Below, one piece after another: positions 15,084-27,522 of a stretch of 41,049 bases of DNA (its first letter is position 1; each line of letters begins with the position of its first letter). The notes beneath the pieces were generated by a model. That model had not been told where the DNA came from, did no database searches, and was given only the letters and a program-made list of their open reading frames with translations. The DNA comes from Sandarakinorhabdus cyanobacteriorum (lineage in GTDB: Bacteria; Pseudomonadota; Alphaproteobacteria; Sphingomonadales; Sphingomonadaceae), in contig NZ_NOXT01000086.1 of assembly GCF_002251755.1 (NCBI RefSeq), positions 1-41,049 of the forward strand. The letters run 5' to 3'. Both the position numbers and the translations under genes were made by a program.

Positions 15084-17015
15084 ATGACACCGCACCTCAT
15101 CGCCCTTCTGCTCGCCTCTGCCGCCAGCGCCGCGCCGCCACCGCCCACGGCCAGCCCGCAAACCCAGGCCGACAACGCCGCGCTGGCCGCCACGCTGAAC
15201 TGGGCCGACACCCAGGATTTCGATTTCGCCGGCCGCGGCTTTCTGGGCAGCATTGCCGACGGCAAGATCCGCGATGCCAAGGGCGCGGTGCTGCGCGATC
15301 TGAATGACGAGGCGCAGTTCAGCGGCCCGGCCCCGGCGACGGTGAACCCCAGCCTGTGGCGCAACGCCAGCCTGCTGGCCAGGCACGGCCTGTTCGAGGT
15401 GGCCGACGGCATCTGGCAGGTGCGCGGCTTTGATCTGGCCAACATGACGATCATCCGTGGGACAACAGGCTGGATCATCATCGATCCGCTGACCGGGGCG
15501 GAGGCGGCGACGGCGGCGATCAGCCTGGTCAATGAAAAGCTCGGCAAGCGGCCGGTGGTCGCCGTGATCTATACCCACAGCCATGTCGATCATTTCGGCG
15601 GCGTGCTGGGCGTGGTGAACCCCGCTGATGTGGCGGCCGGCAAGGTGGCGATAATCGCGCCAGAGGGCTTCCTCGAACATGCCGTGTCGGAAAATGTCAT
15701 CGCCGGGCCGGCCATGCTGCGCCGCGCCAGTTACATGTTTGGCGCGCTGCTGCCGCGCGGGGCCACCGGCCATGTCTCTTCCGGTCTGGGCCCGATGGGC
15801 ACGCCCGGCACCTACGGCCTGATCCCACCGACCGACAGCATCAAGACGACCGGCGAGACGCGGACCATCGACGGGGTGGAGATCGTGTTTCAGGTGACGC
15901 CGAACACCGAAGCCCCGGCGGAGATGAACTTCTACCTGCCGGCGTGGAACGCGCTGTGCCTGGCGGAAAACGCCAACGGCGCCATGCACAATCTGCTCAC
16001 CCCGCGCGGCGCGCTGGTGCGCGATGCCAAGGGCTGGGCCGATTATCTGATCGAGGCGCGGCGGCGCTGGGGCGGCAGCGCCAATGTGCTGTTCACCAGC
16101 CATTTCTGGCCGCGCTGGGGCAAGGACCAGATCAGCGATTATCTGCTGCGCCACGCGCAGGCCTATGCCTTCGTGCACAACGAAAGCGTGCGGCTGATGA
16201 ACCAGGGGCTCAATGCGGTCGAAATCGGCGAGGCGATCAAACTGCCGGAGCCGCTGGGCAAGGCGTGGTTCAACCGGCCCAATTACGGCAGCCTGAAATT
16301 CAACGCCCGCGCCGTCTATCAACGCTATCTCGGCGCCTTTGATGGCGATCCGGCCAATCTTGATCCGCTGCCGCGCGCCGATCTGTCGGCCCGGTTGGTG
16401 GCGCAGATGGGCGGGGCGAAAAAGGTGCTGGCCGCCGGCAAGGCCGCCGCCGCCAAGGGCGATGACCGCTGGGCGGCGACCCTGCTTTCCACCCTGGTGC
16501 GCGCCGCGCCCGACACGCCGGGGGCCAAGGCAGCGCTGGCCGGCGTCTATCGCCAACTCGCCTTCCGTGCCGAGGCCTCACCCTGGCGCGATTTCTATCT
16601 GACCGGCGCGCAGGAACTGGAACAGGGCATCAAGCCCAGCACCCAGGCGGCCGCCGCCGGCATCGCCGCCAATCTGTCGGTGACCAACCTGCTCGACTCC
16701 ATGGCGGTGCGGCTGGTGCCCGAACGCGCCATCACCCCGATGACCATCGCGTTCGAAATCCCGGATGCCAGGGAACGCCACCTCGTCACCATCGGCAATG
16801 GCGTCATGCTGCACGAAAAGGGCGTGGACGATGCTGCGCAGGCCACCCTGGTGGTGCCGCGCCGGGCCCTGATTGGCCTGATCGGCGGCGCGGTGAAAGC
16901 GCCGGAGCTGATGGCGGCAGGGCAATTGCAGATCAAAGGCGATCTGGCCGTGCTGCAGCGGTTCATGACGCTGTTCCAGCCGCCGAGGCCGGATTTTCCG
17001 CTGGTGGCGCCATAG
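15084..17015 (+). CDS. SdsA-type alkylsulfatase, metallo-beta-lactamase fold, exported
   Basis: This 643-residue protein matches the alkyl (SDS) sulfatase family, which hydrolyses long-chain alkyl sulfates to alcohol and sulfate. A signal peptide (about 1-16, ending ASAA) suggests a periplasmic location. The dinuclear zinc site is visible as THSHVDH (164-170), with the downstream NTEAPAEMNFYLP, HNLLTPRGA and SHFWPRWG segments characteristic of SdsA1/YjcS. The C-terminal 130 or so residues form an SCP2-like domain presumed to hold the hydrophobic tail. Length fits the family. It ends convergently with the decaheme cytochrome gene across a palindromic repeat. Confidence 0.93.
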   Translation: MTPHLIALLLASAASAAPPPPTASPQTQADNAALAATLNWADTQDFDFAGRGFLGSIADGKIRDAKGAVLRDLNDEAQFSGPAPATVNPSLWRNASLLARHGLFEVADGIWQVRGFDLANMTIIRGTTGWIIIDPLTGAEAATAAISLVNEKLGKRPVVAVIYTHSHVDHFGGVLGVVNPADVAAGKVAIIAPEGFLEHAVSENVIAGPAMLRRASYMFGALLPRGATGHVSSGLGPMGTPGTYGLIPPTDSIKTTGETRTIDGVEIVFQVTPNTEAPAEMNFYLPAWNALCLAENANGAMHNLLTPRGALVRDAKGWADYLIEARRRWGGSANVLFTSHFWPRWGKDQISDYLLRHAQAYAFVHNESVRLMNQGLNAVEIGEAIKLPEPLGKAWFNRPNYGSLKFNARAVYQRYLGAFDGDPANLDPLPRADLSARLVAQMGGAKKVLAAGKAAAAKGDDRWAATLLSTLVRAAPDTPGAKAALAGVYRQLAFRAEASPWRDFYLTGAQELEQGIKPSTQAAAAGIAANLSVTNLLDSMAVRLVPERAITPMTIAFEIPDARERHLVTIGNGVMLHEKGVDDAAQATLVVPRRALIGLIGGAVKAPELMAAGQLQIKGDLAVLQRFMTLFQPPRPDFPLVAP

Positions 17016-17169: not shown

Positions 17170-20100
17170 CTATTTCCGCAGCGGCGACCAGGCCCCCATG
17201 TCCACCCGGTCGGTCACGCGATAGGGCTGGCCATTCTCGCCGATGAAGAAGCGCTCCGTCTCCTTGCGGTTGAACGGCCGTGACCCCAGGCGACCCAATA
17301 TGGCGATCTGGCCGCCGGTTTCGTCCACTGCCCGGTCACGGTCCAGCCCCTTGGCCACCGACAGCGCCGGTTTGGCGGTGCGGGCAAAGGCGATCATCTC
17401 CGGCATCGGCTTGGGCGAGAAGCCATAGAAATTGGGCTGGCTGTCCGGGCTGGTCAGCTGCAGCACCTTCACGCCGTTGCGGCCGTCCGCGACATAGGCG
17501 AACAAGGTGGCGTTGGTGCTGGCCACCACCACATCCTCGGCATCGGTCAGCGTGCCGCCTGCCGTGAAGCGCTGATACAGCCTGGGCGCCAGCGGCTTCT
17601 TCACGTCCACGATCAGCAGGCCATTCGATTTTGCGGCGACATAGGCATAGGTGCGGGCCAGATAGAATTTGCGCGCATCGGCAATGGGCAACGTGGCGTC
17701 CGGATGATGCACCGGCCGCTTCAGATCGGCGATATCGAGCACTTCGAGGCCATTGGCCGTCGTCACCCACAGATAGCGGAACTGCACCGCGCTCGCCCGC
17801 GCATCATTGAGCGGCAGGCTTGTCGCCAGCTTCGGCGCCCTGGGATTGTCCAGATCCACCACCACGAGGCCGCGCGGCGTCGTCACATAGGCGATGTGGC
17901 CGGCCAGCGTGATGTGGCGGGCGCCGTTCAACACGCCATCGGGGTTCCACGCCGTGCGGCCACCCTCCAGCACCGTCCGCTTCAGGAAATTGTTGCGCGG
18001 CTCGCCATCGGTCAGCGTGTCGACATTGACCAGCACCAGGCCCTCGATGCTGTCGGTCACCACCGCATAGCGGTAGATCTCGTGCATCTTCTGCTCCTGA
18101 TTATAGCCGGCCAGCGGGTCGGCCAGCGGCTTGCCAGCGGTGCGGTCGTTCTGTTCCCCCACGATCTTGTCGTTGCGCGGCACGCTGATCGGCTGGTTGG
18201 TGGCGATCGCCATGCAGGTGGCATTCGCCGTCTTCACCTGGGCATCATGGCCCAGGCCTGAGAAGGGTGATTTGACGATGCGTTCGGAAACACCCTTGTT
18301 CGACAGATTGGCAATGTCATAGGCGACAAAGCCGCCCCGGCCTTCGGCGACATAAAGATATTCGCCGCGGTTCTGGATGCAGCGCACTTCGCCCGACGTG
18401 CCTTGCGTGATGTTGCGGATCTCCTCGGTCGGGTTGGTCTCGCCCGACAGGCGCTTGTCGAACACCCGCCCGCGCGTCCAGTTGATCAGCTCGCGCTTGT
18501 TCTTCTCGACATGCAATTTCCAGAAATCCGGATAGGCATAGCGGTGGAGATAGGAGCCGAACACCGCCTGCGGCTCGCCAAACTCCGTCACCCGCACCGC
18601 TTCGACAGCGCGGTCGAGGCCAAAAAAGGCGTGCATGCCCACGAAGTTGACGAAGTTGGTGCCCTGCAGGGTCAGCTGCGCCAGGATGGCATTGTTGTCG
18701 TCGTCCTCGCTCACGTGGCAATCGGTGCAGGTCTTGGTTTCCTGGGTGCGCACCGTGTGCGGGAAATGCGGTGCAAAGGCCTGGGAGGAGAAGCCCGACG
18801 CTGCGATCGGCGGCTGCTGCACATAGATGCGCTCGCGGTTGATGTTGGTGGAGGTCAGGATCAGCGCCGAGCTGGAACGGATCGGCGCGATGATGCCGCC
18901 CTTGCTGGTCTGGTGGCGGCCCAATTGGAACATCTCGTCGCGTGCCACCTGCGGGTTGTAGGTGGCAAAGTTGCGGGTCTCCTGCTCCTCATACTTGTGC
19001 GTCGTCGATTTCCAGTTGGCCTCGATCGGCAGGTGGCAGCCGCCGCAGCTGGTGGTCCAGCTGGTGTGGCAGGCAAAGCAGGCCACATTGTCGTCATTGT
19101 GGGCTCGGGTTGCAACGCCGGGGCCGAACGACATTTTTCCGCCAGTGCTGGCCAGCGTGCCCATCAGCTTGGCCCGCGCCGCCTTGGCGTTGAAATCGGG
19201 ATGCTCGCGATTGACACTGTCCTTCACCAGCTTGACGCGCCAGACCAACGCCGGATCGCTGGCCGAACGCTGCCACAACACCCGGCGGCCATCTTGCAGC
19301 CCCCATTCAAAGCGCAGCCGGCCATCCGGGTTGCGGATGTTCGACAGATCGGTGCCCGGCGGCGGTGCGGCCAGGTTGGAGGTGCGCAACGTCGGATAGG
19401 CGTCGGCGGTGCCGTGGCAATCCTTGCAGCCGATCTCGACGCTGTTGGCCACTTCGCCATGGATGAAGCCATTGCCATGGGCATCCTGGGCGAAATGGCA
19501 ATCGGCGCACTGCATGCCCACTTCGGTGTGGATGTCCATCAGATGCACCGCCTTGCCGGGCTGGCCGGGGCCGGGCACGGCGGCGGGCTTGGTAAACTGC
19601 GGCCCACCTGCCTTGCGGAACTTCTCCGGATCATCATTGGCGACGATATGGGCCGTGTCGGTGCCCCAGCTCGCCATGTTGCCGCCCGCATCGAGCAGAT
19701 TGCCCTCGCGGTCGCGCTTGTAGACGGCGCGGAAGTTCCAGCCATGGCCGTGATAATCGGCGAACTGGGTGTCCTTCATCTTGTCATTGCGGTCGTTCAC
19801 CGTGCGCAGGAAATCCAGATCGCTCCAGGCACCATGGGCGGCGGCACCTTCCGGGTTGCGTTCGTTGGTCTCGCGCACTTCAGCGGCGGTCGGATAACGC
19901 TGGCGTTTGAACAGCCGGTCATACTCGGCGTCGGACATGCCCGCCGGCTTGGGATAGGGATTGTCCTTGCCCGGCCACATGCGCGGGGCGTCGCTTTCAT
20001 AATCCCACATCGTGTAGCCATAATAGGTGTTCACGAACATGTTGGGCTGGTGCATGTGGCAATTCATGCACAGGCTGGACGGCATGGCGCGGGTGAAGCT

Positions 20101-21342
20101 GTGCTTGATCGGGTGGCCCGGCTCGGTCTTGTTGATGGTCGGATCGGCACTCTGGCTCTGCCCATCGCGCCCGGCCGCGGCATAGACCGACGAATGCCGC
20201 ACCTCCCGATCATTGGCATAGACGATGTGGCAGGAACCACAGCCCGAAGTGCGATAATCGCCGGGCTGGTCGTTGGTGCCCATGAACCAGGTGAAGGGGT
20301 CGTTCAGCCGCGTCTTGTGGATGTTGATCACCGGCACCGCAATGCGCAGGCCGGTGCCGGGGCCACGGTTGGACTGGCGGATATCAGGCCGCCCGGGCTC
20401 TTCCAGCCGCTGGATGCTGCCCAGGCTGTTCGGCAGGCCGATTTCCGGGAAGGTCGGGTTGATGTTGCGGCCGCCGCGTTCGAACACGCGGAAGATGTCG
20501 GCCGGCGGGATCACCTGCCAGGCCGGCAGCGGGGCCAGGAAGGGCAGCGCGCCGCGCGCCTTTTCCGCATCCGAAAGCGCGCCAATGCCCTTGGCGCCCG
20601 GGCTGAACATCAGGCCGGGCAGGCTGTTGTCGTGATGGCCGCCGCCCGCGGCATGATGATCATCGCCATGCTTCAGGCCCAGCTCGCCATGGCCCGACGC
20701 GTCGCCGTTCCACGCCCCCAGCATGCCGGCCGCCTGGCCCGGCCGGTAATAGGCCTCGCCCAGGACGTAGTTCTTGTAGGGCAGGATGCCATTGTTATAG
20801 GCCGCGCCGCCGAACAGCATGGCGCCGGTGGCCATCAGGCTGCGCTCGGCCCGCTCGATGATCTCCATGTGGCAGGCGCCGCAGGCATCGCGGGCGGCGC
20901 GATAGTCAGACGGGTTGACGAAGCGGACGAACTCCGGGCTCTCGCGGTTGAGCAGCGTGTAGCTGCGCTTGGGGTTGGCCGACGACGGGAAGTGCCAGCT
21001 TTCCGGGAACATCGGCAGCACATGGGCTTCGTCGCGCAGCTTCCTGTAATTGGGATCGCCCATCGCCAGCGCCGGCGGCGCAATGATCTTCGCATCGCCG
21101 CCGTGGCAATCGGTGCAGCCAAGGACGACCGATTTCGGCGCGTGCATCGTCGCCTCATCGCTCGCCGTGTGGCAGCTGATGCAGCCGGCCGATTTGGCAT
21201 CCGCTTGCGCCTGCGTCTGCCATTTCGGTGCGGCTGGGGCGCGGACATGGGCATAGTCGCGCGCCACCGGCTTTTCGCCTTCCGACGCGATCGCCATCCC
21301 CATCAGGGGCAGGATCAGCAATAGGGCGAGCCGTTTCAGCAT
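17170..21342 (-). CDS. Decaheme c-type cytochrome fused to an LVIVD-type beta-propeller
   Basis: A 1390-residue exported protein. After a signal peptide (about 1-20) there are ten CxxCH heme-attachment motifs at 54, 76, 154, 368, 425, 612, 639, 755, 766 and 872, plus many further His that could be distal ligands, including a His/Gly-rich patch at about 218-238. From about 985 to 1310 the sequence repeats a beta-propeller pattern (EYLYVAEGRGGFVAYDI, GLVVVDLDNPRAP, GLEVLDIADL, GLLIVDVKKP) of the LVIVD type. No lipobox is seen. The start at 21342 is chosen for the signal peptide and lies 2 bp after the barrel gene's stop; longer forms to 21582 lack one. It is the last gene of a four-gene operon. 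Electron carrier or terminal reductase are both possible. Confidence 0.9.
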   Translation of the reverse strand: MLKRLALLLILPLMGMAIASEGEKPVARDYAHVRAPAAPKWQTQAQADAKSAGCISCHTASDEATMHAPKSVVLGCTDCHGGDAKIIAPPALAMGDPNYRKLRDEAHVLPMFPESWHFPSSANPKRSYTLLNRESPEFVRFVNPSDYRAARDACGACHMEIIERAERSLMATGAMLFGGAAYNNGILPYKNYVLGEAYYRPGQAAGMLGAWNGDASGHGELGLKHGDDHHAAGGGHHDNSLPGLMFSPGAKGIGALSDAEKARGALPFLAPLPAWQVIPPADIFRVFERGGRNINPTFPEIGLPNSLGSIQRLEEPGRPDIRQSNRGPGTGLRIAVPVINIHKTRLNDPFTWFMGTNDQPGDYRTSGCGSCHIVYANDREVRHSSVYAAAGRDGQSQSADPTINKTEPGHPIKHSFTRAMPSSLCMNCHMHQPNMFVNTYYGYTMWDYESDAPRMWPGKDNPYPKPAGMSDAEYDRLFKRQRYPTAAEVRETNERNPEGAAAHGAWSDLDFLRTVNDRNDKMKDTQFADYHGHGWNFRAVYKRDREGNLLDAGGNMASWGTDTAHIVANDDPEKFRKAGGPQFTKPAAVPGPGQPGKAVHLMDIHTEVGMQCADCHFAQDAHGNGFIHGEVANSVEIGCKDCHGTADAYPTLRTSNLAAPPPGTDLSNIRNPDGRLRFEWGLQDGRRVLWQRSASDPALVWRVKLVKDSVNREHPDFNAKAARAKLMGTLASTGGKMSFGPGVATRAHNDDNVACFACHTSWTTSCGGCHLPIEANWKSTTHKYEEQETRNFATYNPQVARDEMFQLGRHQTSKGGIIAPIRSSSALILTSTNINRERIYVQQPPIAASGFSSQAFAPHFPHTVRTQETKTCTDCHVSEDDDNNAILAQLTLQGTNFVNFVGMHAFFGLDRAVEAVRVTEFGEPQAVFGSYLHRYAYPDFWKLHVEKNKRELINWTRGRVFDKRLSGETNPTEEIRNITQGTSGEVRCIQNRGEYLYVAEGRGGFVAYDIANLSNKGVSERIVKSPFSGLGHDAQVKTANATCMAIATNQPISVPRNDKIVGEQNDRTAGKPLADPLAGYNQEQKMHEIYRYAVVTDSIEGLVLVNVDTLTDGEPRNNFLKRTVLEGGRTAWNPDGVLNGARHITLAGHIAYVTTPRGLVVVDLDNPRAPKLATSLPLNDARASAVQFRYLWVTTANGLEVLDIADLKRPVHHPDATLPIADARKFYLARTYAYVAAKSNGLLIVDVKKPLAPRLYQRFTAGGTLTDAEDVVVASTNATLFAYVADGRNGVKVLQLTSPDSQPNFYGFSPKPMPEMIAFARTAKPALSVAKGLDRDRAVDETGGQIAILGRLGSRPFNRKETERFFIGENGQPYRVTDRVDMGAWSPLRK

Positions 21343-21344
21343 GA

Positions 21345-23213
21345 TCAATAAGCCAGCACAGCGTTGAACAGCACCGAATAATAATGGCCGGTGCGGGGTG
21401 AATTGGTGAACAGGTCGCGGAAGCCGGCGCCGGGCTTCAGCACCGCGCCCGACAGGCGGAACACCAGATTCTGGTTGAAGTGCGGGCGGTAGGTCGCCGC
21501 CGTCGACAGATCCCACCCGATATCCTTGGGGATCGTCCCTTCCACGCGCAGCGCCTGCAGCGTGGCGGTGGTGGCAAACCACAGATGATTGGCGCTGCCG
21601 CTGATCCTGAGTTCGGGCAATATGTCGAAATCGGCGCCCACGCCCAGCAACATGGTGCCGGGGTTGGTGAAATTGGCCTGGCCCTGTTCCTTGGACGACC
21701 TGAGATCGTTCAATATGCCGTTGCGGCTGTTCACCGAAATGGCGCGGCCGCCGCCGGCAAAGGGAATGGTCTGGCGCACCCAGTAACTCGTGTCGGCACC
21801 GGCAAACTGCGGATTCTCGAAAATCGCCGCATAGCCACTGTCGACATCGTCATACGGGTTGGAATCGCCCGAGGCATAGAGTGCCGAAGCCCGGAAGCGC
21901 GCCCAGCCGCGGTCATAGCTCGGCTCCACCGCCACGAACCAGCTGTTGATCTTCGCCCGCCGGTCCGTGAAGATGTTGTTGCGGTTGGTTCCCGTCGCAT
22001 GCGTGGCCGACAGCGACAGGTTGAGCCGGCCGATATGGCCATCGGCGTTGTAGCTGAGATACACCACATCATAGCTGCGGCCCCGCAGGGTGCCGAGCAG
22101 CGCCGGCCGCACCGGGAAGCCATTGGTGTCCACCTGCACATCATTTCGCTCGCGGTTGATGTTCCAGATGGCGCTCACCTGGCTGGTCATCCCCGGCAGC
22201 GGCAGATCCTGGCGATAGAGATTGGCCACGAACAGCGCATCGCGGCGGGGTGCGCGCAGCACGGCGTTCAGCCCCGAGTTGCTGTCCTTCTCCAGCCGCC
22301 AGAAGGCCGCCAGATTATATTGGAATCGGTTGTTGTCGCGGTTCCCGAACAGCCGCACGCCCAGCTGGTTGTCCTGGAACAGGAAGCCGCGAAAATCGCT
22401 GGAAAAGGGCTGGATGCCGACCCGGATCGAATCGAAATCATAGCGGTCCGACGTGTTCCGAAGGTGATAATCCAGGAACAATTCCTGCACGCCCACGAAC
22501 GCATCGGTGCGCAAGGATCGCTTCGACGGCAGCACCGACAGCACCCGCTGTTCCGGCACGTCGACATGGTTCACGTTGAAGGCAATCGCCGCCCGCAGTT
22601 CATATTCGGGCGGCTTGAAGGCCGTGCTGCCCTTGGTCAACGCCGCGCCCAGGATGAAGGTCTGCGCGAACACCTCGCTATACTGGCGGCCGAACACGTC
22701 ATTGTTGCCCGGCCGCTCCGTCGTCTGCACGCCCACCGGGATGGGGAAGCTGCGCGGTTCGGCCAGCGTATCGGAAATCGCGGTCAACTGCAGGAACAGG
22801 TCGTGCGTGCCGCAGATCGGCCGATCGCCCTTCAACGTGTTCTGGTTATAAGGGTCTTTCCAGTTGGATTTGACCAGGCCCAGCGTTTCGATCAGCCGCC
22901 AGCGATCGGGCACCGGCAGATGATCGGCAGGAAAATCGCCCTGCTTCGGCCAGGCCACCGCGCCCTGGTTGGCCTGCACCACCGGGTCCCACGTCTGCGG
23001 CCCGCCCATCCCCGGCACCCGCCGGCCGGGCAGATTGCCGGCTTGCGGATCGGCTGGCGGCGCGGCCTCGTCGCCCGGCAGCCGGTCCTTGGGCGGTTCC
23101 ACCTTGGCATAGCAATCAAACCATTTGCCGAACGGCTTGGCCACGGCCGGCCCCGCGCTGCCCAGCAGCGCCAGCAGCACGAGGCTGCGCCACTCAGCGC
23201 GCCTGGCAGACAT
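21345..23213 (-). CDS. Outer-membrane beta-barrel protein of the multiheme operon
   Basis: The 622-residue product has a signal peptide (about 1-25, ending AVAK). Its mature part is rich in alternating hydrophobic/polar strands of about 10 residues with Tyr, Phe and Trp at the ends, and it terminates in ...FNAVLAY, the aromatic ending of barrel proteins. An N-terminal periplasmic-looking segment (about 26-110) is Pro/Gly-rich and holds Cys34. No heme motif is present. Size would allow a large barrel comparable to the porins of porin-cytochrome complexes, but no sequence motif of MtrB/PioB was recognised. Its start overlaps the lipoprotein gene by 20 bp. Confidence 0.75.
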   Translation of the reverse strand: MSARRAEWRSLVLLALLGSAGPAVAKPFGKWFDCYAKVEPPKDRLPGDEAAPPADPQAGNLPGRRVPGMGGPQTWDPVVQANQGAVAWPKQGDFPADHLPVPDRWRLIETLGLVKSNWKDPYNQNTLKGDRPICGTHDLFLQLTAISDTLAEPRSFPIPVGVQTTERPGNNDVFGRQYSEVFAQTFILGAALTKGSTAFKPPEYELRAAIAFNVNHVDVPEQRVLSVLPSKRSLRTDAFVGVQELFLDYHLRNTSDRYDFDSIRVGIQPFSSDFRGFLFQDNQLGVRLFGNRDNNRFQYNLAAFWRLEKDSNSGLNAVLRAPRRDALFVANLYRQDLPLPGMTSQVSAIWNINRERNDVQVDTNGFPVRPALLGTLRGRSYDVVYLSYNADGHIGRLNLSLSATHATGTNRNNIFTDRRAKINSWFVAVEPSYDRGWARFRASALYASGDSNPYDDVDSGYAAIFENPQFAGADTSYWVRQTIPFAGGGRAISVNSRNGILNDLRSSKEQGQANFTNPGTMLLGVGADFDILPELRISGSANHLWFATTATLQALRVEGTIPKDIGWDLSTAATYRPHFNQNLVFRLSGAVLKPGAGFRDLFTNSPRTGHYYSVLFNAVLAY

Positions 23214-25149
23214 TGTTCTCGCTCGTGTCGAGGAAGGGCGCAAACGGGCAGCCAACAAAGCGCAGCCGCACCCGGTTGCCGGTGGCCAACGGCACCTCCA
23301 CTTGGTCGGACCGCACGCTGGCCGGCGGCAGGCCGATGCCGCCCACACGCAGCCCGGCATTGCTGGTGCCGAGGAAGCTGATCATGTCGTCCTGATCGAT
23401 GCCGTCGCCCGACACGCCGATCGCGCCCACCAGCGTGGCGCCGCGATAGATGGGCACGGCACCGGGAAAGATCTGGATGCCATTGGCCAACCGGTTCTGA
23501 CCGCTGGCCGTGTTGGGCAGGAAGCTGCACTGCCGGGGGTCGCCGCCACCCAGCACCTGCACCAGATTCTGCACGATCAGCGCCGATTGCAGGCCGGTGG
23601 AAAAGGGCGACCAACCCCTGATGTCACGGCTCAGGGCACCCGGCGGCCGCCCGGCCTCGCCATCGGGGAAATAGGGGCGGGCGATGTTGCCGATGGCACG
23701 GTTTGACACGGCCACCTGCCCGGTGAGGAAGCCGGTGTTGCCAAAGAAGGCGTTGGTCTTGGCAACGAAATCACGCACATTGGCATCCGGCGCACCAGCT
23801 GCCGTCACCACCGCGCCCAGTTCGGCAGCCGCGCGCGGGTTGGAGAAAAAGGCCGCCGTGCGCGCCTTTTGCAACGAGACATCGATGCCGAACACCGGCG
23901 CATCCGGGGATCGCACCAGCCCCAGCACGGTGCCGCGCGTGTCCACCACCGAAATCGACACCTGCGCCCGGCTGTCGAGCGGCTGGCGGATCTGGGCGCG
24001 GGCGCGCGCCATGATGGCAAAGGCCTCTTCCAGGATGGCGCGGGCCTCGGCAGCGGTCAGCGGCTGCGCCACATCGCCGGCATCGCTGCCGGCCCGCACC
24101 GGGTAGCGGTTGGCACCGGCCCCGTCGCTCAGCACATAGGCATCGGGATGGTTGAACTCCGCCGCTGTCGCCGGCCGCACGCCGCTGGCCTCGCTGCCAT
24201 AGGGGGTGCCGGCCACGATGCTGGCGGCGTTGAAGCCAGCCACCGCCACCAGGCTGCCGGTCAGGCTGGCAAAGCCGGGCGCGCTGGCCGGATTGGCGCG
24301 CAGGCCCGCCGCCACCGCATCGCTGTAGCGCAGCAATGTGCCATCCACCGAAATCCGCTCCGCCCGGATGGTCGCCGGCGCCTCGAACCCGGTGGTGGCG
24401 GCGAGCGCGATATGCTCCTCGTCGTCGACATCGGTGTCGGTCACTTCGCTGTCAAAACCATAATCGCCATCGGCCATGATGCCGACACCGCCCACGGCAA
24501 CGCCGTTCTTGTAGAGCGGGAAACCGCCGGGATCGGCGGCAAGGCCCAGCGGGGAGCGTTTGGGGCCGATGAACGGGCTGCCCACGCCAAAGCGCGCCAC
24601 CAGATCGGAACAGGGCAATTGGCTGAACTGCACGCCATAAAGTGGGCCCGATTCCAGCCCCACCGTGCGGGCCGAGGGCGGGAAATGCGGCTGCACGATC
24701 ATCGATGCGGTGCGGGTGGAAAAGGCATTGCCGCCTGATGACAGATAGGCGCCAGTGATGGCCTTGGCGATCGCGGCCAGCTCGGCCGGCACCGTGACCC
24801 CTTGCGCATCGATGTTGGCGCCATTGGCGTTGGCGCGGGTGGTGGCGGTGGCGCGCGCACCAGCCATGCGATAGACGGCCAGCACATTCCCCACCCGATC
24901 CACCACGGCAATCACCGCCGGCAGATTGCGCGCCGTTGCTTCGGCGGCGGCGCGGGCAATGATCGCCTGCACATCGGCGGTGGTCAGCGCTTCGGCGGGC
25001 GGGCGGGTAAACACGCTGGCCGGGCTGACCCCGGGTGACGGCGTCGGGCTGACCGCCACCGGGGTGGAAGGCGCGCCGCCACCGCCGCAACCGGCCAGCA
25101 GCAGTGCAGCCGCTGCAACGCCCGCCGTGATGCGCACAGCCGGCGTCAT
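23194..25149 (-). CDS. Lipoprotein with two GlcG/HbpS (heme-binding) domains
   Basis: This 651-residue protein starts with a lipoprotein signal whose lipobox LLAGC puts the lipidated Cys at 21, followed by a Gly/Pro/Ser linker to about 50. Two GlcG/HbpS-like (DUF336) domains follow: the first from about 58 contains AVIAVVDRVGNVLAVYRM, the second from about 370 contains SVVDTRGTVLGLVRSPDAP and a KARTAAFF segment. HbpS of Streptomyces binds heme outside the cell and GlcG accompanies glycolate genes. In this operon a heme-binding or structural role at the outer membrane is plausible but inferred. Start ATG overlaps the pentaheme stop (ATGA). Confidence 0.83.
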   Translation of the reverse strand: MTPAVRITAGVAAAALLLAGCGGGGAPSTPVAVSPTPSPGVSPASVFTRPPAEALTTADVQAIIARAAAEATARNLPAVIAVVDRVGNVLAVYRMAGARATATTRANANGANIDAQGVTVPAELAAIAKAITGAYLSSGGNAFSTRTASMIVQPHFPPSARTVGLESGPLYGVQFSQLPCSDLVARFGVGSPFIGPKRSPLGLAADPGGFPLYKNGVAVGGVGIMADGDYGFDSEVTDTDVDDEEHIALAATTGFEAPATIRAERISVDGTLLRYSDAVAAGLRANPASAPGFASLTGSLVAVAGFNAASIVAGTPYGSEASGVRPATAAEFNHPDAYVLSDGAGANRYPVRAGSDAGDVAQPLTAAEARAILEEAFAIMARARAQIRQPLDSRAQVSISVVDTRGTVLGLVRSPDAPVFGIDVSLQKARTAAFFSNPRAAAELGAVVTAAGAPDANVRDFVAKTNAFFGNTGFLTGQVAVSNRAIGNIARPYFPDGEAGRPPGALSRDIRGWSPFSTGLQSALIVQNLVQVLGGGDPRQCSFLPNTASGQNRLANGIQIFPGAVPIYRGATLVGAIGVSGDGIDQDDMISFLGTSNAGLRVGGIGLPPASVRSDQVEVPLATGNRVRLRFVGCPFAPFLDTSENNVCQAR

Positions 25150-26540
25150 TTCAGCGCCCGTGCCCTGGCGGCAATCTGGCCCAGCGCGGCGCGGAATGCC
25201 GGCGCATCCCAGCGATTGGCATCGCGGGCCAGGGCATAGGCGCGGTCAAGATCGGGCCGCAACGCCAGCGCCGCCGCCCGGTCCACCTGGCCGGCGGCCA
25301 CCAGCGCATTCAGCAGCGTGTCCGCCGCCATCACGGCCTGCGCACCGCCCTGATAATCGGTGTAGGCCGGCGCATTGCCCACCAGCACCGCCTCGATCAG
25401 CGCAAAGCTCTGCGCCCGGTCAAAGCTTGCGCCGGCAAAGCGCCGGGCCAGAGTGCCCGCCGTGGCCTTCAACGCCGCCGCCGCCTTCAACGCGCCCGCC
25501 CGGTCACCGCCCAGCGCGGCGTGGAAGGCGCGGCTCTGGCCCTCGAGGCTGCGCGCCAGATCGGGCGCCGCCACACGGGCAGCGGCCATCAGCATGATCA
25601 TCTGCTCGTCATTCCACACCGGGTGGCCGGGTGGGATCGGCCGCCAGCCGTTGCTGCGCGCCACCAGCTGGGCGGCCGGATCATCGCTGAACGTGCGATG
25701 GCAACTGCGGCAATCATAGAAATAATAATCCGGCCCGGTCAGCCCGGCCGATGCGGCGGGCAACAGGCTCAGCGCCCGTTCCACCGCCATGGCCTGGCCC
25801 ACCGCCCAGGTCTTCACGCCGCCGGAAATCCCTTTTTGTGCCCGATAATCAGCGTCTTCATCATGGTGCGATTGCAGGCTGGTGAACAGGTCCAGCTCGA
25901 ACGCCACGCGCGGGTGGCCGGCGGCCATGATGCGGTGAAACACGAACTGGCCCGGCTTGTCCGATCCGAAATGGCAATCCAGGCAAACGCCGGCGCGCAC
26001 GGCGGGATTGTGCATCGCCCACATGCCGCGCGCCATGTTGTCGGCGGTGCTGGCCTTCACACTGGCATGGCTGGCCAGCCAGTTCACCGATCCGCCATGG
26101 CAGGCTTCGCAACCAACACCATCCGATTGCTGGAACTTCGGCCCGCGCACCGGGGCGGGATCACCATGGCAATTGATGCATTCGGGGCTGGCGGCGACAT
26201 TGGCAATGCCCAGCCGCCGGCCGATGGCCTGGGCGCGCGGCTCCATCAGCACCTTCCAGGCGCGGCTGTGCGCGCCGGTCAGGCTGGCCGGATCGCTCCA
26301 CGTCATCACCTCGTTCTGGCGCACGCGCGGGCCGGTCGCCTCCTGCCGGCCATGGCAGGTCGAACCGGCGCAGGTGGCAACGCCCTGGTGCAGGGCGCGG
26401 TCATGCCCGGCAGCCAGCACCGCCGATTCGGCCGCCAGAATCGCCCAAACCAACGCGGCGATTCGGGTCAACCAGCCCCAGGCCCCCACCTGTTGCGAGC
26501 GGCCGCGGCGCGGTGCGTGCATTGGAACGTTCACGTCCAT
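25146..26540 (-). CDS. Pentaheme cytochrome c554-like protein
   Basis: This 464-residue protein has an N-terminal hydrophobic segment (about 22-43) serving as signal or anchor. Heme sites are CAGSTCH (57-63, a CX4CH variant), then CINCH (121), CEACH (144), CLDCH (186) and CRSCH (277). The spacing, ECINCHGDP and the DGVGCEACHGG stretch resemble the cytochrome c554 family. The C-terminal 180 residues are helical, Ala-rich and heme-free. The ATG at 26540 follows a GGGGGGAAA site; an upstream extension to 26696 lacks a signal peptide. It is the first gene of the four-gene operon and could pass periplasmic electrons to the decaheme protein. Confidence 0.88.
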   Translation of the reverse strand: MDVNVPMHAPRRGRSQQVGAWGWLTRIAALVWAILAAESAVLAAGHDRALHQGVATCAGSTCHGRQEATGPRVRQNEVMTWSDPASLTGAHSRAWKVLMEPRAQAIGRRLGIANVAASPECINCHGDPAPVRGPKFQQSDGVGCEACHGGSVNWLASHASVKASTADNMARGMWAMHNPAVRAGVCLDCHFGSDKPGQFVFHRIMAAGHPRVAFELDLFTSLQSHHDEDADYRAQKGISGGVKTWAVGQAMAVERALSLLPAASAGLTGPDYYFYDCRSCHRTFSDDPAAQLVARSNGWRPIPPGHPVWNDEQMIMLMAAARVAAPDLARSLEGQSRAFHAALGGDRAGALKAAAALKATAGTLARRFAGASFDRAQSFALIEAVLVGNAPAYTDYQGGAQAVMAADTLLNALVAAGQVDRAAALALRPDLDRAYALARDANRWDAPAFRAALGQIAARARALK

Positions 26541-26587: not shown

Positions 26588-26751
26588 GACATTGAACGGC
26601 CAATATCGAACCGGCCGATGCGATGCCGAAAGACCATTGCCGCCGGGTCAAGGCTGTGATTACTTCCCGCCCGAATTCGATAGAGGAACAGGGCAATCAC
26701 ATGGCCCGTCAGAGGCTAGGCCCTTCCTGCAACGCGCTGGGGAGTGACGTC

Positions 26752-27522
26752 ATGGATCTGCGTGCCAATCTTGCTGCTGTTTCGGTCCGGTCGATGGCCG
26801 ATGTGCGCCGCGCCGCCGAGGCGCTGCGCGATATCGCGCTGGGCTGCGGTGGGCTGCATGTCATCGCGGTGGACAATATCGCCTCCAAGCATCCGATGGA
26901 GGATGCCGACGGCAACATCCTGGCCGCCGATGTCTTCGGCTGGACTGGCGAAAGCGAACATTGGTGGAAGGACACCAAGCTGGCGCTGTCCTCGCCGCTG
27001 CCGCGCGCCTGCCGCTACGAATCGGAAGTCTTCTGGGCCAATGCCACCGGCTTCTACACCCGCCAGCCCAACCCCTATCTCGACGAGATGAACCTCGAGA
27101 ATTTCGAGAAGCGCGCGCTGACCAAGGCCGCGATCGTGGTGCCGGTGCACCTGCCCTTTGGCCAGATCGGCGCGGTCTGCTTTGTCAGTCGCGATCCGGG
27201 CCGCTCCGATCTGTCGGCCGAATATGATGCCTGGGGCGATCCGCTCGCCCTGATGTCCCACCGTTTCCTGGCCGGTTATGTGAAGGCGCACCGCACCCGC
27301 CGCTGGCTGCCGGGCGATTGCCAGCTCACCAAGCGCGAGGTGGAATGCCTGCGCTGGGCCAGCATCGGCAAGACCGACAAGGAAATCAGCCTGATCCTGT
27401 CGCGCAGCCACGCCACCGTGCGCTTCCACATCCAGAATGCCGGCGAAAAGCTGAACGCCGTCAACCGCAGCCAGACCATCTTCAAGGCCGCCCAGCTCGG
27501 TTATCTTGGCGCGGCCGCCTGA
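26752..27522 (+). CDS. LuxR-type transcriptional regulator
   Basis: This 256-residue protein has an N-terminal region resembling the autoinducer-binding fold of LuxR-type proteins (about 1-165, with FGWTGESEHWW and LPRACRYESEVFW) and a C-terminal LuxR/GerE helix-turn-helix (about 190-250: LTKREVECLRWASIGKTDKEI then HATVRFHIQNAGEKL). No LuxI-type synthase is in the window, so it may be a solo regulator. The ATG at 26752 has GGGGAG 7 bp upstream; an alternative ATG at 26701 adds 17 residues. It is divergent from the multiheme operon across 211 bp and is the obvious candidate to control it. Confidence 0.85.
   Translation: MDLRANLAAVSVRSMADVRRAAEALRDIALGCGGLHVIAVDNIASKHPMEDADGNILAADVFGWTGESEHWWKDTKLALSSPLPRACRYESEVFWANATGFYTRQPNPYLDEMNLENFEKRALTKAAIVVPVHLPFGQIGAVCFVSRDPGRSDLSAEYDAWGDPLALMSHRFLAGYVKAHRTRRWLPGDCQLTKREVECLRWASIGKTDKEISLILSRSHATVRFHIQNAGEKLNAVNRSQTIFKAAQLGYLGAAA

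Follow-up and report, generated by a model that had tools for sequence, protein, structure and literature searches.

Work on extracellular electron transfer has centred mostly on iron oxidisers and on anaerobes that reduce metals. In the MtrCAB, MtoAB and PioAB systems an outer-membrane barrel is encoded together with multiheme cytochromes, and the same is true of a four-gene operon of the alphaproteobacterium Sandarakinorhabdus cyanobacteriorum. This operon lies in a stretch of 41,049 nucleotides (assembly GCF_002251755.1, contig NZ_NOXT01000086.1, positions 1 to 41,049; hereafter the window) and runs on the minus strand from 26540 to 17170, encoding in turn a pentaheme cytochrome, an HbpS/GlcG lipoprotein, a barrel and a decaheme cytochrome. 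Other described systems also resemble it. PCC4 combines a porin with three multiheme cytochromes, 5- and 10-heme proteins among them, and has no surface cytochrome (PMC5566968); the Geobacter extHIJKL and extMNOPQS clusters share with the present system a non-cytochrome outer lipoprotein, a barrel (45 kDa in Geobacter), a periplasmic pentaheme cytochrome, larger multiheme cytochromes, a membrane cytochrome b and an Fe-S protein (PMC6148476, PMC5877670). The first-pass annotation had named a candidate porin-cytochrome conduit. Judging by sequence, we propose that the products of the four genes probably form the outer half of an electron chain across the cell envelope, the inner half of which would be encoded on another contig of the same genome, outside the window.

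The gene content, motifs, conservation and co-occurrence of the two halves were observed directly. Successive junctions in the operon are a 4 bp overlap, a 20 bp overlap and a 2 bp gap, and fifteen heme c motifs are encoded, ten CXXCH in the decaheme cytochrome and four CXXCH plus one CX4CH in the pentaheme cytochrome; the coordinates and motif counts given in the first-pass annotation agree with these. Its claim that the genes form one unit was checked by co-occurrence and is borne out. In a sample of 199 Sphingomonadaceae genomes, the same 72 matched every one of the four proteins strongly (outside these, weak or partial matches were seen to the barrel in G010 and G196, the pentaheme in G102 and the lipoprotein in G052, G091 and G138). 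All four genes share one locus and one order in 36 of the 38 operon-bearing genomes whose regions were compared, the exceptions being G106, whose lipoprotein gene lies on another contig, and G016, in which a contig end falls between barrel and decaheme; in G047 the order is kept with 2.9 kb separating lipoprotein from barrel. Start codons in the 38 regions were picked by rule, and intergenic gaps are approximate. The decaheme has its ten motifs in all 38 regions, and the 4+1 set of the pentaheme is kept in 37, with the frame broken in G020. Chance clustering of the four genes was considered and rejected on the shared 72 genomes and the order kept in 36 loci.

In public genomes, at least 594 stretches code for a protein related to the decaheme. 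We named the best 80 of these, a choice that favours close relatives; by their titles they come from sphingomonad genera, from Phenylobacterium or Caulobacteraceae, from (Alpha)proteobacteria and, in one case, from Aquisalinus, with a Sphingomonadales bin and two species of Sandarakinorhabdus standing closest. With the window added, 67 of 81 loci encode the four proteins in separate frames; the other 14 comprise 11 that start at a contig end, L184, in which lipoprotein and barrel are fused in one frame, and L129 and L164, which are considered below.

Table. Features of the operon and its flanks in the window (aa, amino acids)
Feature	Positions	Strand	Basis
Pentaheme c554-like cytochrome, 464 aa, N-terminal hydrophobic signal	25146..26540	-	PF13435; profile match 1bvb
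Heme motifs of the pentaheme	about 26372-25698	-	
Tandem HbpS/GlcG-domain lipoprotein, 651 aa	23194..25149	-	PF03928; lipobox
Lipoprotein signal and lipobox	25149-25087	-	LLLAGC
Outer-membrane beta-barrel, 622 aa	21345..23213	-	predicted model; AlgE best fold match
Predicted 18 strands, residues 139-621	about 22799-21351	-	predicted model
Decaheme cytochrome with C-terminal LVIVD repeats, 1390 aa	17170..21342	-	ten CXXCH; PF08309
Heme part of the decaheme	about 21183-18715	-	limits estimated
LVIVD part of the decaheme	about 18390-17383	-	limits estimated
Divergent LuxR-type regulator adjoining the operon	26623..27522	+	Pfam; neighbour count
Alkyl-sulfatase-like metallo-beta-lactamase protein, convergent to the operon	15084-17015	+	

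Clustering of the neighbours in the named loci revealed a recurring gene set convergent to the decaheme gene. It encodes a phosphodiesterase-like protein (a match to the SpdA model, below its cut-off), a protein with an FHA domain and ten heme motifs (the FHA-decaheme), a small membrane protein, and a large flavoprotein with pyridine-nucleotide/FAD (flavin adenine dinucleotide), two cyclic-nucleotide-binding and 4Fe-4S domains; tblastn relatives of these were found, in that order, in 50, 46, 41 and 39 of the 80 loci. In the genome of the window all four genes lie together on another contig (G000:C109). Two WX3HX13H motifs are present in 20 of 20 sequences of the membrane protein and SGXXG in 18 of 20, the protein of the window genome having both, and the Fe-S part holds 16 cysteines in four clusters in all 20 sequences. 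The FHA protein has a single hydrophobic membrane segment after its FHA domain (12 of 12 sequences), and FHA domain and hemes would lie on opposite sides of the membrane. The alignment of FHA proteins excludes L171, which has a stop within its range, and with it L162. The two gene sets can also be contiguous, as in two genomes outside the family. In G554, from the same phylum and another class, a single strand carries consecutive genes for flavoprotein, membrane protein, FHA-decaheme, lipoprotein, barrel, decaheme and pentaheme; in G562, which belongs to the class of the window genome, these genes also share a strand but are ordered differently; and in G348 the inner set, lipoprotein and barrel run up to the contig end.

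Several other genes recur nearby. An NADP-type glutamate dehydrogenase is encoded in 32 of the 80 named loci at several positions (for example in L117, L116, L138, L181 and L193); in G562 its gene sits between those for pentaheme and lipoprotein, and in Sphingopyxis indica beside that for the pentaheme. A CHASE2-domain protein, which we take to be a cyclase, is a neighbour in 29 loci. Presumably the gene adjoining the inner cluster in the window genome, in G449 and in L131 is ccmF; the presumed ccmF gene was placed at L209:3096-5664, L223:6910-8982 and L131:20302-22257. Flavoprotein and membrane cytochrome b are fused into frames of about 1120 aa in L219:3052-8143 and L220:4850-10653, near an FHA protein with nine heme motifs, on stretches without the outer operon.

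The two halves occur together well beyond the loci in which they adjoin. A full-length FHA-decaheme is encoded in 71 of the 72 operon-bearing Sphingomonadaceae genomes (counting G116, where it lies in two pieces at contig ends) and in none of the other 127. The sole miss, G022, is a genome 67% complete, and G176, 70% complete and without the operon, holds a piece of 44 residues. Operon and FHA gene are within 15 kb of each other in 35 of the 71 pairs; in 17 they share a contig at a distance of 16 kb to 2.2 Mb, and the remaining 19 pairs are divided between contigs, in some cases perhaps by assembly breaks. At least five genera (g15, g28, g34, g78 and g79) include genomes with both halves and genomes with neither; these within-genus contrasts, with the negatives listed in part, are the only guard against shared ancestry in this comparison. 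In a sample of 398 genomes of the phylum, 19 gave a decaheme match, and each of the 11 in which that match is strong encodes the FHA protein at full length. These counts leave out weak or partial matches, namely 11 to the FHA protein in the family sample, and 8 to the decaheme and 110 to the FHA protein in the phylum sample.

With its inner half included, the system comes close to PCC4. The inner-membrane protein of PCC3 and PCC4 carries two WX3HX13H motifs and SGXXG and is taken to bind two hemes b (PMC5566968), the motif class found here. As in Subgroup II of that report, a PF13247 Fe-S gene lies directly upstream of the membrane-protein gene (E 6e-11 in L131 and 1.2e-10 in L118), and tblastn finds the same gene order in the window genome. 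The cytochromes reported for PCC4 have 4, 5 and 10 hemes, whereas those here have 5, 10 and 10; in the sections at hand, FHA, cyclic-nucleotide-binding, HbpS and LVIVD domains are not named for PCC4, and the terms 'Sphingo' and 'lipoprotein' have no occurrence in the main text (PMC5566968). The present system may be identical with part of PCC4, from which it is set apart by the description of PCC4 and not by its sequences. PCC3 differs more plainly, having cytochromes with medians of 34 and 21 hemes and porins that mostly have many predicted segments, up to 42 (He 2017, PMC5566968). The lipoprotein of Geobacter extHIJKL is rhodanese-like, whereas only an HbpS-like match was found here at E ≤ 0.01. 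The authors of PMC6148476 advise that searches consider non-cytochrome components. Among the papers listed by our searches of an open-access library none was seen to describe this gene set, and the label 'undescribed' in the first-pass annotation holds only as far as those papers; PCC4 is close.

The barrel separates the system from MtrCAB, MtoAB and PioAB, since it belongs to another family. The model supports the first-pass call of an outer-membrane barrel and has 18 predicted strands (mean predicted local distance difference test, pLDDT, 66, with low confidence for the first about 135 residues), and AlgE accounts for all 17 of its best PDB fold matches. MtrB, by comparison, has 26 strands. 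Neither single-sequence nor profile searches of the PDB with the barrel gave a match, and the window barrel has no Pfam family at E ≤ 0.01, the threshold of our Pfam search, in which the pentaheme query carried two extra residues (start 26546). Ortholog alignments of the four operon proteins (A1-A4) used 32 of 39 available sequences each; among the barrel orthologs, PF13372 (Alginate_exp) was weakly matched by 2 of 32 and the porin model NF033939 by 16 of 32. None of the 32 barrel orthologs matches MtrB_PioB (PF11854) at E ≤ 1, nor does the whole window genome hold a match, in a search for which 14 control genomes gave only Caulobacter, below the cut-off, and so no clear positive control; on these two results membership in that family is rejected. 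None of the scored proteins reaches the TIGR03508 cut-off for DmsE/MtrA-type decahemes (192.2 bits, against 11.1 for the pentaheme, 9.2 for the decaheme and 18.2 for the FHA-decaheme of L131), a model to which weak matches, with a best E of 2.1e-5, come from 24 of the 32 pentaheme orthologs, and the system has no surface lipoprotein cytochrome.

Because the barrel is predicted to be AlgE-like with 18 strands, an arrangement of the MtrAB kind, with a cytochrome inside the porin, is not supported. Taken with the heme-free lipoprotein and the absence of a lipobox from the decahemes, this leaves the MtrAB/PioAB-like sheath of the first-pass annotation without support; what is supported is a conserved unit accompanied by a second redox gene set, the two resembling a chain that leads from the cytosol to the outer membrane. 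The system may work like a porin-cytochrome conduit, yet the MtrAB-type tests made here were negative, and a barrel of the predicted size does not by itself explain how electrons would pass the outer membrane. ExtB of the tested Geobacter extABCD conduit is also predicted to have 18 transmembrane segments (PMC6148476), which calls for caution in reading 18 strands as ruling out a conduit.

The decaheme cytochrome carries, besides its ten CXXCH motifs, C-terminal LVIVD repeats that the first-pass annotation had overlooked (PF08309, E 3.4e-17), and all 32 orthologs match them. No PDB match was obtained with the decaheme in single-sequence or profile searches. Against the ExtM model NF040943 it scores 68.8 bits (E 3e-19) where the cut-off is 800, and ExtM membership is rejected on that score; none of the control genomes held ExtM. 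Distant relatives of about 785-857 aa with 12 heme motifs occur in L120, L121, L122 and L123, and one in L122 adjoins a NapC/NirT cytochrome.

Several points weigh against assigning the four genes to a trans-envelope chain. The barrel, as modelled, looks too small for an MtrA-like cytochrome. None of 39 decahemes has a lipobox, leaving no lipid anchor to indicate surface exposure, and the structure prediction for the decaheme, made from 8 sequences with estimated cut points, reached a pLDDT of 27 and was set aside. In L129 and L164, barrel and decaheme are encoded with neither lipoprotein nor pentaheme in the 8-10 kb upstream, and in G106 the lipoprotein is encoded apart from the operon. Shared ancestry and frequent adjacency inflate the raw Fisher value for co-occurrence of the two halves, which we do not take as a probability. 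Finally, 4 of the 15 phylum genomes with a full-length FHA protein (G348, G347, G231 and G199) lack a decaheme match; the inner half can therefore serve other outlets. In a separate observation, the lipoprotein of G106 (L057) is 74% identical, compared with 85-86% in two genus mates.

The predicted barrel and the missing lipobox would suit a periplasmic reductase with its own substrate porin, in which the barrel admits a soluble oxidant (for example a metal oxyanion, a chelate or a quinone), which the HbpS lipoprotein then binds for reduction by the decaheme, without any passage of electrons through the outer membrane. The weak porin-model matches of half the barrel orthologs point the same way, as does the distant, below-cut-off relation of the decaheme to ExtM of the Geobacter selenite/tellurite cluster, in which the porin ExtI is proposed as a selenite/tellurite channel or a cytochrome anchor (PMC5877670). 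The ExtM score is nevertheless a small fraction of the cut-off, 8 of 32 decaheme orthologs also match domain II/IV of the surface cytochromes MtrC/MtrF, and no oxyanion gene is named near the operon in two annotated plasmid records, the neighbours elsewhere being named in part. We consider such a reductase rather unlikely, and prefer the trans-envelope chain.

The pentaheme and the lipoprotein were rightly assigned by the first-pass annotation, as a c554-like cytochrome and a tandem GlcG/HbpS protein respectively. The pentaheme matches PF13435 (cytochrome c554 family; E 4e-9, 37.7 bits, above the gathering score of 20.8), and its profile matches the cytochrome c554 structure 1bvb (E 8.9e-7). 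A lax lipobox pattern occurs in 18 of 39 pentahemes and in all 18 falls on the first heme cysteine, and is therefore no evidence of a lipid anchor. In G020 (L058) the pentaheme is split over two frames, for which sequencing error and gene decay are both possible. The lipoprotein matches PF03928 (HbpS-like) in three stretches (E 5.9e-24, 85 bits, above the gathering score of 25), has a lipobox pattern in 37 of 39 sequences, and shows no heme c motif in a search for one. Among known structures its profile matches EfgA best and a cobalamin-adenosyltransferase-type protein next; NahX and HbpS structures are matched as well. Since EfgA and the cobalamin-adenosyltransferase-type protein rank first, heme binding by the lipoprotein cannot be assumed. 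The extracellular heme-binding proteins 4nkp and 3fpv among the matches would favour a role in heme or iron acquisition, in which lipoprotein and barrel import heme or ferric iron and the cytochromes act as a ferric reductase, and in Sphingobium herbicidovorans a gene for a low-affinity iron permease is located some 20 kb downstream. We regard this as very unlikely, given that the two leading structural matches outrank the heme binders, and that no heme-uptake gene is named near the operon in two annotated records, with neighbours elsewhere named in part.

For the trans-envelope chain, we infer cofactor loading, transfer order, gating, direction and the location of the decaheme. Electrons would enter in the cytosol from NAD(P)H at the FAD of the oxidoreductase with two cyclic-nucleotide-binding domains and pass to its four 4Fe-4S clusters under the control of cyclic AMP or a similar nucleotide. 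They would then move to two hemes b of the small membrane cytochrome, on its two putative heme-binding helices, to the ten hemes c of the FHA protein anchored in the inner membrane, to the five hemes c of the pentaheme, and on to the LVIVD decaheme. This last cytochrome may share its place at the outer membrane with the HbpS lipoprotein and the AlgE-like barrel, and would hand the electrons to an acceptor that is bound on the cell surface or close to it. Control by cyclic nucleotides is suggested by the cyclic-nucleotide-binding domains, the phosphodiesterase-like neighbour and the CHASE2-domain neighbour. The nearby NADP-type glutamate dehydrogenase fits an input of NAD(P)H, though shared synteny may partly explain its presence.

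Outward flow is most likely, and is a guess. The opposite direction has been proposed for PCC3 and PCC4, and here too electrons might flow inward, given up outside the cell by a donor such as Fe(II) or Mn(II) and delivered to the membrane or to NAD(P)+. Against this stand the FAD/NAD(P) oxidoreductase with four Fe-S sites with which the inner cluster starts and the glutamate dehydrogenase near so many loci, both fitting an NAD(P)H donor, and a host range that includes Sphingobium and Phenylobacterium, which are heterotrophs. The motif set of the membrane cytochrome b is that of PCC3/PCC4, for which He models electrons as passing from a donor outside the cell to quinone, and PCC3 is reported from Alpha-, Beta- and Gammaproteobacteria, an Mn(II)-oxidising Erythrobacter sp., a sphingomonad, being one of the hosts listed (PMC5566968). 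On balance we hold inward flow to be distinctly unlikely, and keep to the outward direction.

Genes flanking the operon vary. The LuxR-type regulator adjoins it in only 2 of the 80 named loci, both close relatives; as a general operon partner it is rejected on that count, and it is at most a genus-level regulator. Where the window encodes the alkyl-sulfatase-like protein, many relatives have the inner cluster. A TPR gene occurs in 36 of the 80 loci, and in G554 (L118:1-6031) TPR, FecR and cadherin/Big domain proteins follow the operon. Plasmid pMSHV of Sphingobium herbicidovorans MH, a soil strain, holds the outer operon as B6S01_RS18410-18425 and the inner cluster as RS18440-18455, and in their vicinity CHASE2 and CHAT genes and two secretion genes of FhaC type; plasmid pMC4 of Sphingopyxis indica carries the outer operon.

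In its fullest form the trans-envelope reading describes an export chain of about 27 hemes, gated by nucleotides and driven by NAD(P)H, across the envelope of many ordinary aerobic Alphaproteobacteria, a bacterial counterpart of surface NADPH oxidases and ferric reductases in which an AlgE-like barrel of 18 strands and an HbpS lipoprotein lacking heme, rather than an MtrB-type sheath and a surface cytochrome, would provide the way across the outer membrane. We put this forward tentatively, as a possible but doubtful whole. If sphingomonads, Phenylobacterium and others do possess such a complete, conserved chain, surface redox chemistry would be routine for aerobic heterotrophs, and would be tied to NAD(P)H in the cytosol as well as to signalling through cyclic nucleotides and FHA domains.

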